Shown in pieces: positions 26,036-27,591 of a stretch of DNA of 34,872 nt. The notes under the pieces are model-generated. The model saw only the letters and a program-made list of their open reading frames with translations. It was not told where the DNA came from and did not search any database. How positions within the stretch are numbered: position 1 is the first letter of the stretch; every line of letters starts with the position of its first letter. The stretch comes from Gammaproteobacteria bacterium (lineage in GTDB: Bacteria; Pseudomonadota; Gammaproteobacteria; SURF-13). The position numbers and the translations under genes are program-made. The stretch covers positions 1-34,872 of the forward strand of contig QZKM01000047.1 in assembly GCA_003599485.1 (NCBI GenBank), in the 5' to 3' direction.

Positions 26036-26211
26036 AAAAGACGGACCTGTCTTGTCCCGTCTGCGGCAAGCCGGTGCAGTGGTCAGAGCGTTATCCCCAC
26101 CGCCCATTTTGCTGCGAACGCTGCAAGCTGATTGATCTTGGCGCCTGGGCGGGGGAGTCCTATCGCATCCCGGCGCAGCCTCCGGAAAAGCAGCCGGATG
26201 AAGAAGAATGA
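26032..26211 (+). CDS. yacG: DNA gyrase inhibitor / zinc-binding protein YacG
   Basis: YacG is a 59-residue zinc-finger protein; the E. coli homologue binds GyrB and inhibits gyrase. Zinc ligands are Cys8, Cys11, Cys27 and Cys31 (CPVC and CCERC). The motif [17 protein letters not shown] (24-40) is the family signature, and the tail is acidic. The ATG at 26032 overlaps the zapD stop (ATGA). It is the last gene of the pilB-yacG block. Confidence 0.95.
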
Positions 26212-26227
26212 CGCCGCGACGTGCTGA

Positions 26228-26310
26228 GTCGCTCCCGGCATCCTGTGCCGGGCAGGACGCCCCAATGTCGCGGGCGCAGGGACGCGCAGGAGCGACCCTC
26301 CCGCGACATT
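26228..26310. repeat. Interlocking palindromic element between convergent yacG and argJ
   Basis: Several perfect inverted pairs nest and interlock here. CCCGGCA (26234-26240) pairs with TGCCGGG (26246-26252), and its loop TCCTG is complementary to the next five bases, CAGGA (26253-26257). AATGTCGCGGG (26264-26274) pairs with CCCGCGACATT (26300-26310), extended inside by AGGG/CCCT (26278-26281 with 26296-26299). GTCGCTCC (26228-26235) is complementary to GGAGCGAC (26289-26296), which lies in the loop of the large hairpin. It may be a bidirectional transcript end, a mobile repeat, or a structured RNA; no T tract marks it as an ordinary terminator. Confidence 0.7.
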
Positions 26311-26370
26311 AGTAGAACCCTTCGCTGGCGTTCTTCCCTGTACGTCACAAATTGAATGTCCCATCACATT

Positions 26371-27591
26371 TCAAGTTCTGTACTCGGCGTTGATGCGCAC
26401 GTAGTCATAGGAAAAATCGCAGGTCCATACGGTGACACCGTGAGCGCCGCGCTTCAGGTCCACGCGCACGGCGATTTCCGCGCGGCGCATGATTTCCCTG
26501 CCTTGCTCCTCGGTGTAGTCCGGCGCGCGCGCGCCGTTTTGTACTATGCAGGCTTCGTCCAGGTGGATGCTGACGCGTTCCAGATCGAGATCGCCGATTC
26601 CGGCCCGGCCCACGGCGGCGAGGATGCGCCCCCAGTTGGGGTCGGAGGCGAAGAACGCGGTTTTCACCAGAGGTGAGTGGGCGATGGCGTAGGCTGCGCG
26701 GGCGCACTCCTCTTCGTTGGCGCCGCCGCTGACCTCGATGATGATGAACTTGGTCGCGCCTTCGCCGTCGCGCACGATGGCCTGCGCCAGCTCCACGCAG
26801 ATTTCCGTGATGGCGCTGGCCAGGGTTTGGTAAACGGCGCTCGCGCTGTCCGTGACGCACGGCAGCGTGCTCTTGCCGGTGGCGATCAGCACGCAGGCGT
26901 CATTGGTCGAGGTGTCGCCGTCCACCGTGATCCGGTTGAACGACAGCCGCGCGGCTTCATGTAAACAACGCTGTAAAAGCTCTGGCGCGACAGCCGCGTC
27001 GGTGGCGATGAAGGCGAGCATGGTCGCCATGTCGGGGCGGATCATGCCGGAGCCCTTGGCGATGCCGGTGATGGTGACTGGATGGCTATGCAGTGTGAAC
27101 TGACGCGAGACGCCCTTGGGCGCGGTGTCGGTGGTCATAATGCCGTGCGCGGCGTCTTCCCAGCCCATGCCGCCGAGCCCGGCGTACGCTTCGGGCAGCC
27201 CTTGCACGATTTTCTCCACCGGTAAGGGCTCGCCAATTACACCGGTGGAGAAGGGCAGCACCTCATTGGCCGCGCAGCCCGCGAGCCCGGCCAGCGCCGC
27301 GCAGCAGGCCCCGGCGTCGCGCAGACCCTGTGCGCCGGTGCCGGCATTGGCGTTGCCGGTGTTGATAAGCAGATAACGCGGGGCGGCCTGGGCAAGATGG
27401 TTGCGCGCCAGCACCACCGGCGCGGCGCAAAAGGCGTTTTGCGTGAACACCGCGGCGCAGTGCGCACCCGGTGAAATTTCCATCACCACCAGGTCGCGCC
27501 GCCCCGGTTTCCTGATTCCGGCGCGTGCCGTACCCAGGCGCACGCCAGCCACCGGATGCAATACGGACAACGGCTTGAGGCCTACCGGCAA
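26371..27591 (-). CDS. argJ: Bifunctional ornithine acetyltransferase / N-acetylglutamate synthase
   Basis: ArgJ transfers the acetyl group from N-acetylornithine to glutamate in the cyclic arginine pathway. It may also make N-acetylglutamate from acetyl-CoA. It has 406 residues. The self-cleavage site is Ala189-Thr190 in [13 protein letters not shown], where Thr190 becomes the nucleophile. The N-terminal [10 protein letters not shown] and the late [19 protein letters not shown] match the family. The start is TTG 27591: the preceding GAGGA, seven bases away and overlapping the secA stop, and homology both support it. It is 10 bases downstream of secA, so the two are likely co-transcribed. Confidence 0.96.

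Follow-up and report, generated by a model that had tools for sequence, protein, structure and literature searches.

Palindromic elements that insert into genes in frame have been described above all in Rickettsia. The RPEs of Rickettsia (Alphaproteobacteria) are ~150 bp of palindromic selfish DNA that lie in frame inside unrelated genes, encode a conserved peptide and have no known transposase (Ogata et al. 2000, 2002, as summarized in PMC10969869). CGTC REPs are single hairpins with 8-9 bp stems that begin with AT pairs, a loop of 4-5 nt and a CCA tail, and in the published families the CGTC tag borders a single hairpin (PMC3733652). The cleavage sites of IS200/IS605 elements are set by complementarity to guides located 5' of each hairpin, and TnpA-REP proteins may depend on particular bases in the loop (PMC8266576). 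The element analyzed here occupies the spacer between yacG and argJ in a gammaproteobacterial genome, and we are highly confident that it belongs to a family of mobile palindromic repeats. The full explanation, that two copies of such a miniature repeat from a gammaproteobacterial family lie nested and that the family spreads by the mechanism proposed below, we consider probable.

The window, i.e. the whole stretch of DNA that was analyzed, comprises 34,872 nucleotides, and its spacer is bounded by the yacG stop codon (26209-26211) and by the argJ stop codon at the low end of argJ (26371, minus strand). Three perfect inverted pairs of 7, 8 and 11 bp were found exactly where the original prediction had placed them (Table 1); the loop TCCTG (26241-26245) can pair with CAGGA (26253-26257), as it had noted, and a T tract is indeed absent. 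The structure of the spacer exceeds chance, since the 159-nt stretch folded better than shuffles on both strands, with a z-score of -3.55 on the plus strand (0/200 shuffles as good) and -3.06 on the minus strand. The decisive argument against chance is that the spacer sequence recurs across its own genome. A search of this genome (1.69 Mb, 50 contigs) with positions 26190-26400 returned 74 local matches, the best of which had 91-98% identity over 81-120 bases with E-values down to 1e-42; the genome holds ~50 copies, and the second copy that the original prediction had proposed looking for is thereby found. The element proper stops at 26347 and not at 26370. Unit A occupies the first hairpin loop of outer unit B, which itself gave an R1 match of 35.3 bits over 26228-26347. 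It is the opposite orientation of the two units that lets the interlocking arms pair: the 8-bp pair joins the GTCGCTCC starts of units A and B and the 11-bp pair joins their CCCGCGACATT segments, whereas in the outer unit 26228-26232 natively pairs with 26303-26307, and the other native hairpin lies near 26311-26347. Thus, the pairs behind the predicted pseudoknot-like topology exist, but the topology is a by-product of nesting and no property of a single unit.

Table 1. Features of the yacG-argJ spacer (positions in the window)
Feature	Position	Strand	Description
Nudix-ThiE remnant, far side of insertion	26212..26227	-	encodes QHVAA; match to the L298 gene
Whole composite element	26228..26347	+	120 nt = 40 codons (51 + 51 + 18); clean insertion relative to L298
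Outer unit B, 5' part	26228..26245	+	GTCGCTCCCGGCATCCTG; stem arm GTCGC and first half of inner hairpin
Nested unit A	26246..26296	-	GTCGCTCCTGCGCGTCCCTGCGCCCGCGACATTGGGGCGTCCTGCCCGGCA; exactly 51 bp; R1 match 38.9 bits, E=1.1e-7
Outer unit B, 3' part	26297..26347	+	CCTCCCGCGAC arm, ATTAG linker, hairpin 2 and CGTCA end
18-bp (6-codon) extension in hairpin 2	26315..26332	+	GAACCCTTCGCTGGCGTT; seen in other family members
Nudix-ThiE remnant, 5' end	26348..26370	-	VMGHSI, where L298 has VTEHLI; immediately follows the argJ stop codon
7-bp perfect inverted pair	26234-26240/26246-26252
8-bp perfect inverted pair	26228-26235/26289-26296
11-bp perfect inverted pair	26264-26274/26300-26310

In a genome of the same genus (G001), an intact 338-aa Nudix-ThiE fusion gene (MutT/thiamine-phosphate synthase; Pfam domains NUDIX and TMP-TENI; L298:1385-2398) lies between yacG and argJ, runs in the argJ direction and has no unit at the insertion position of the window. 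Alignment to this gene placed the composite in frame at codons 7-8. The order in the window is VMGHSI (the first codons), the 40 composite codons read in the favored frame described below (CDVQGRTPAKGSTNVAGG..MPGAT), QHVAA and then straight into the end of yacG, and ~0.95 kb of Nudix-ThiE sequence is absent as far as the yacG stop codon. Judged from this alignment, the window copy is not natively intergenic and the spacer is the stub of a deleted gene; the 120-bp composite invaded codons 7-8 and now sits in an apparent spacer because the remainder of the gene was deleted. The only relative of the Nudix-ThiE gene in its own genome is at 44%, on another contig, with one in-frame TGA. Two further genera of the family also have units in or at this gene, between its two domains at L302:3151-3201 (G003) and just upstream of its conserved part at L300:1337-1387 (G002), so the gene has been struck repeatedly and at differing positions. 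Alternatively, the spacer could be read as a resident terminator or other structured element at mRNA ends, which its position between convergent genes and its strong structure would fit; with no T tract, the same sequence inside many unrelated genes, a gene stub as the spacer and a same-genus relative without the unit, this reading is contradicted and we regard it as extremely improbable.

Side-by-side comparison of the copies gave a unit length of exactly 51 bp, and tandem copies recurred with a 51-bp period (L119, L131, L139). The unit consensus is GTCGCTCCCGGCATCCTGCCTCCCGCGACACTAGCACnTCCCTGTnCGTCG. Hairpin 1 has the form GYCGC-TCC-[CGGC-NTCCT-GCC]-TCCC-GCGRC, i.e. GTCGC..GCGAC around GGC-ATCCT-GCC. 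It is followed by a 5-nt linker, AYTRG (mainly CTAG, TTAG or CTGG among 137 distinct units), by hairpin 2, in which a variable 3-4 bp stem with a C-G closing pair surrounds NTCCNT, and by a 3' tail of 5 nt, CGTCG and variants. In the type A unit the loops are exchanged (GCCGCTCC-TGCGC-ATCCCT-GCGC-TCGCGGC-ATTGG-GGC-ATCCT-GCC-CGGCA, also 51 bp), and such units also stand alone (C4:2083, C8:6456, C34:10022). The units code for no protein of their own. Longer family members carry one or two copies of an 18-bp extension (C10:5246, 69 bp; C37:11263, 87 bp). The 18-bp module GAACCCTTCGCTNNCGCT, which occurs once or twice within hairpin 2 at L016, L021, L022 and L023 as well as in the window, comprises six codons and looks as if it had been independently amplified. 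Single hairpins with longer stems and AGGGAT or AGGAT loops were also noted (L066:105, L080:6833, L070:219 and other loci). These two were the most frequent hexa- and pentaloops in the loci examined, so that hairpins with GGA loops may form a class that extends past the 51-bp unit. Some of these longer-stem hairpins serve as targets of the unit (L199, L259, L112).

Most copies are inside genes, since at 115 of 133 sites the unit fell within ORFs of 150 aa or more. At the 76 sites with one clearly longest frame, a single strand and phase was used in 50, as compared to 22% expected (P=2e-16), and the peptide of this favored frame reads D-A/V-Q-G-x-x-S-V-A-G-G-R-M/T-P-G-A-T. The in-frame inserts measured 51, 69, 87, 102 and 153 bp, all multiples of three. 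Host genes named by NCBIfam were dnaG, valS, ligA, hemW, clpB, tgt, mpl, hrpB, rep, tsaD, gpmI and recN, in all 12 of which the family models ran through the insert; cysN was matched across its insert by one related NCBIfam model, and valS was invaded at two different positions (L171 and L077). Protein alignments with homologues lacking the unit were gapless across the junction. When the 51 bp were excised in silico, DNA alignments were likewise gapless at 96% (L141/L126) and 92% (L100/L147), and the L014/L081 junction was gap-free at 89% DNA identity. These are therefore clean insertions with a net gain of 51 bp, and from such comparative empty sites we infer that the unit is mobile.

Of the 369 gammaproteobacterial genomes sampled, 63 carried the family by the covariance model, with up to at least 16 copies per genome. 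Its occurrence is patchy; it is abundant in the taxonomic family to which the window belongs and in scattered others. An exact 33-mer core was present in 92 stretches of GTDB genomes, including Nitrosomonas, Methylomonas, Pseudomonas, Vibrio and Sedimenticola, and the records that carry it were all titled Proteobacteria and were nearly all Gammaproteobacteria by name. The spacer had no match in the plasmid collection, and the 51-mer consensus had none in the phage collection and one in the plasmids (85% identity, NZ_CP072857.1:3584-3634), a copy that lies within the DNA primase gene of a Lonsdalea populi plasmid. The copies at L069, L085 and L130 (Nitrosomonas, Methylomonas, Vibrio) lie in type I restriction-modification genes, which suggests that the unit is carried there on transferred defense islands; the hosts there being hsdM-like or hsdR, the unit is probably also carried along with genes that are transferred. 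Units at the same site of the same gene in the distant relatives Sedimenticola (L084:7209-7259) and Gilvimarinus (L135:2402-2452) point to probable horizontal transfer of a filled gene. Spread by gene conversion or by horizontal transfer of host genes, entirely without transposition, would agree with the copies in these often-transferred genes, as well as with the nested A units, which are near-identical at one position of B. As sole mechanism it is contradicted by the unrelated genes and sites within one genome and by the empty sites in close relatives, and we consider it very unlikely, although either process may contribute.

Both hairpins are supported by compensatory changes. A set of 67 units, fetched with the fixed 33-mer, had 97.4% paired cells and 71 double changes versus 21 expected from shuffles (0/500), so the covariation that the original prediction had proposed to look for is present. 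A second set of 137 distinct 51-mers was gathered from other genomes by the covariance model; since this model was built on the core, conservation of hairpin 1 is somewhat overstated in this set. In one unit set, positions 35-51 of hairpin 2 were unconstrained by the collection. Among the 137 units, compensated changes occurred in hairpin 1 at 2-28 (TA115/CG19) and 11-19 (GC131/AT5), and strong ones in hairpin 2 at 35-46 (CG62/TA61) and 36-45 (AT89/GC28/CG10). The linker was tied to the last base of the unit at 31-51 (CG95/TA34), which fits guide-like pairing, and 33-49 (A-T or G-G) fits it in part, being only partly Watson-Crick. The loop TCC was retained in 134-137 of the 137 units; loop positions 37, 39-41, 43 and 44 were nearly invariant while their neighbors 38 and 42 were free.

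No target duplication was detected, as flanking identity of 1-3 bp was at chance level and that of 4 bp occurred 3 times versus 0.8 expected. The lack of a target duplication and the covariation of the linker with the 3' end together suggest single-strand transposition of the Y1/RAYT type. Under the mechanism that we propose, the unit would spread as non-autonomous DNA by Y1 HUH, IS200/IS605- or RAYT-like single-strand transposition, with the transposing enzyme presumably supplied in trans. The TCC/GGA hairpin loops would be the recognized feature of the donor and of nested targets; copies would persist in genes because 51 bp preserves the frame and because the favored frame would give a small Gly/Ala-rich loop, DAQG..SVAGGRMPGAT, that proteins may tolerate. 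A trans-acting Y1 enzyme seems the likeliest route, which we put forward tentatively. Nesting was preferential, with 19 units directly 5' of CAGG (1.5 expected) and seven directly 5' of CAGG(G)AT (0 expected); the targets were CAGG(G)AT loops of the family itself and similar hairpins (L014, L125, L074, L149). Approximately 5% of sites were loops of 6-8 bp hairpins, versus 0.8% in the control. Sites in genes had flanks of the form YR|YM.G, a confounded preference that is partly explained by codon phase. Base -1 was a pyrimidine in the empty allele and G or A in the filled allele (L141 vs L126, L014 vs L081, L112 vs L080), and the insertion event may replace one target base. No covariation was seen between the -1 flank and element positions, where a left guide would predict some.

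RAYT genes were commoner in carriers than in non-carriers (41/44 vs 19/36, P=5e-5), also among genomes of at least 2.2 Mb (37/38 vs 14/20, P=0.005). Three carriers (G005, G104, G293) had no RAYT match. RAYT genes as local flanking partners were rejected, as ~34 RAYT loci from carriers and non-carriers had no confident unit beside the gene. The full-length RAYT gene of the host itself (NF047646, 197 bits), at L044, has no 51-bp unit upstream; an unrelated imperfect inverted repeat, GATGGGTGGAGCATGCG / CGTAAGCGCAACCCATC, lies just upstream of it (L044:1386-1433). A strict GTAG-REP mobilized by a RAYT encoded elsewhere in the genome would likewise be palindromic, dispersed and free of target duplications, and would agree with CTAG/TTAG directly 5' of hairpin 2 and with the enrichment of RAYT genes. 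We nevertheless find it doubtful, given the tag AYTRG instead of GTAG, the fixed 51-bp unit with two hairpins, the mostly intragenic copies and the absence of a unit flanking any of the RAYT genes examined. A MITE was rejected, as the ends GTCGC.. and ..CGTCG are not mutual inverted repeats and no target is duplicated. The idea of a mobile REP- or MITE-like unit in the original prediction therefore holds for a dispersed, palindromic, multi-copy element with clean empty sites and fails for either class in the strict sense. What it had overlooked was the 51-bp unit, the nesting of two units, the mostly in-frame copies in genes and the stub of a deleted gene.

The conserved loops raise the possibility that the unit is a portable CsrA/RsmA-binding RNA module, its copies serving in mRNAs as binding sites or decoys for CsrA. 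The loop sequences of the reverse strand, C-ANGGAN-G and C-AGGA(U/C)-G, match the CsrA/RsmE consensus and the CsrB repeat (both taken from PMC7652899); the pattern of fixed and free loop positions given above fits ANGGAN exactly, and the ANGGAN strand was the mRNA strand in 57 of 76 clear cases. csrA is present in its own genome and in 71 of 80 genomes, but so near-universal a gene makes its distribution uninformative. On the other hand, copies on the same strand were split 50:7 between phase 2 and phase 1 despite identical RNA, indicating that selection acts on the peptide. The copies in valS (L171), ligA and cysN put the other strand in the mRNA, the carriers G005 and G104 had no csrA match (their assemblies are possibly incomplete), and wobble pairs had no strand bias (15 vs 17). 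Nested insertions hit these same loops, so that the loop is plausibly a DNA recognition feature. In our view RNA binding does not explain why most copies are retained, and we regard the CsrA module as unlikely. The structured RNA of the original prediction was not supported: the pairs covary, but besides the unbiased wobble pairs, units occur in both orientations inside genes, and Rfam gave no family match at gathering or permissive thresholds. A slightly less likely variant is one selfish element that is at once a mobile hairpin pair in single-stranded DNA, a frame-neutral 17-codon module inserted into proteins and a predicted CsrA/RsmA site. If true, the spread of such a triple-role element would rewire proteins and post-transcriptional control alike.

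The preferred reading, a mobile palindromic repeat that invades genes in frame, gives a compact and constant 17-codon family in about a sixth of the sampled gammaproteobacterial genomes. Protein-invading repeats would then be a general route to new protein loops, as the invaded proteins simply acquire an extra loop of 17 codons or another whole codon number. Empty and filled alleles of the same genes, defined ends, a nesting target and a candidate enzyme class (RAYT) form a natural data set with which the long-open question of what moves RPE- and CGTC-type repeats becomes directly testable. For annotators, a recurrent 17-residue stretch in unrelated proteins (DAQG..SVAGGRMPGAT, or the other frames) would indicate an origin in mobile DNA.

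Among open-licence PMC papers, no account turned up of the DNA core, of its peptide or of in-frame palindromes in Gammaproteobacteria; a description in subscription journals is possible. The unit resembles the ends of IS200/IS605 elements in that hairpins lie close to either end, the target is not duplicated and the linker covaries with the 3' end, but it encodes no transposase and the covariation is only partly Watson-Crick. Its reverse strand resembles CsrB/RsmZ hairpins in the ANGGAN and CAGGA(U/C)G loops on short stems (PMC7652899), with GGA in a C-ANGGAN-G hairpin loop; in contrast to them, it lies in both orientations inside genes, and its CsrA sites are predicted ones. GTAG REPs and REPINs are also dispersed gammaproteobacterial palindromes with a tetranucleotide 5' of the hairpin and frequent RAYT genes in the carrier genomes (PMC2817692, PMC3116915, PMC8266576). 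Unlike those 20-40 bp single, mainly extragenic palindromes, the unit is a fixed 51-bp bipartite structure that is mainly intragenic, its linker is AYTRG in the 137 distinct units, and it co-occurs with RAYT genes at the genome level only. With CGTC REPs it shares an end that is often CGTC, intragenic copies and no dedicated transposase (Di Nocera et al. 2013, PMC3733652); CGTC occupies unit positions 47-50 in most units, and CGGC, CATC or CAGC in others. It differs from them in its two hairpins, GYCGC stems, short inner stems of 3-4 bp, TCC loops and lack of a CCA tail. In the way it works the unit resembles the RPEs, which are also palindromic, in frame in unrelated genes, marked by a conserved peptide and without a known transposase. 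As it lacks defining features of GTAG REPs, CGTC REPs and MITEs, we have filed the unit as a new family of protein-invading palindromic repeats, set apart from the RPEs, by their description, in being 51 bp (17 codons) long with two hairpins and in occurring class-wide in Gammaproteobacteria.
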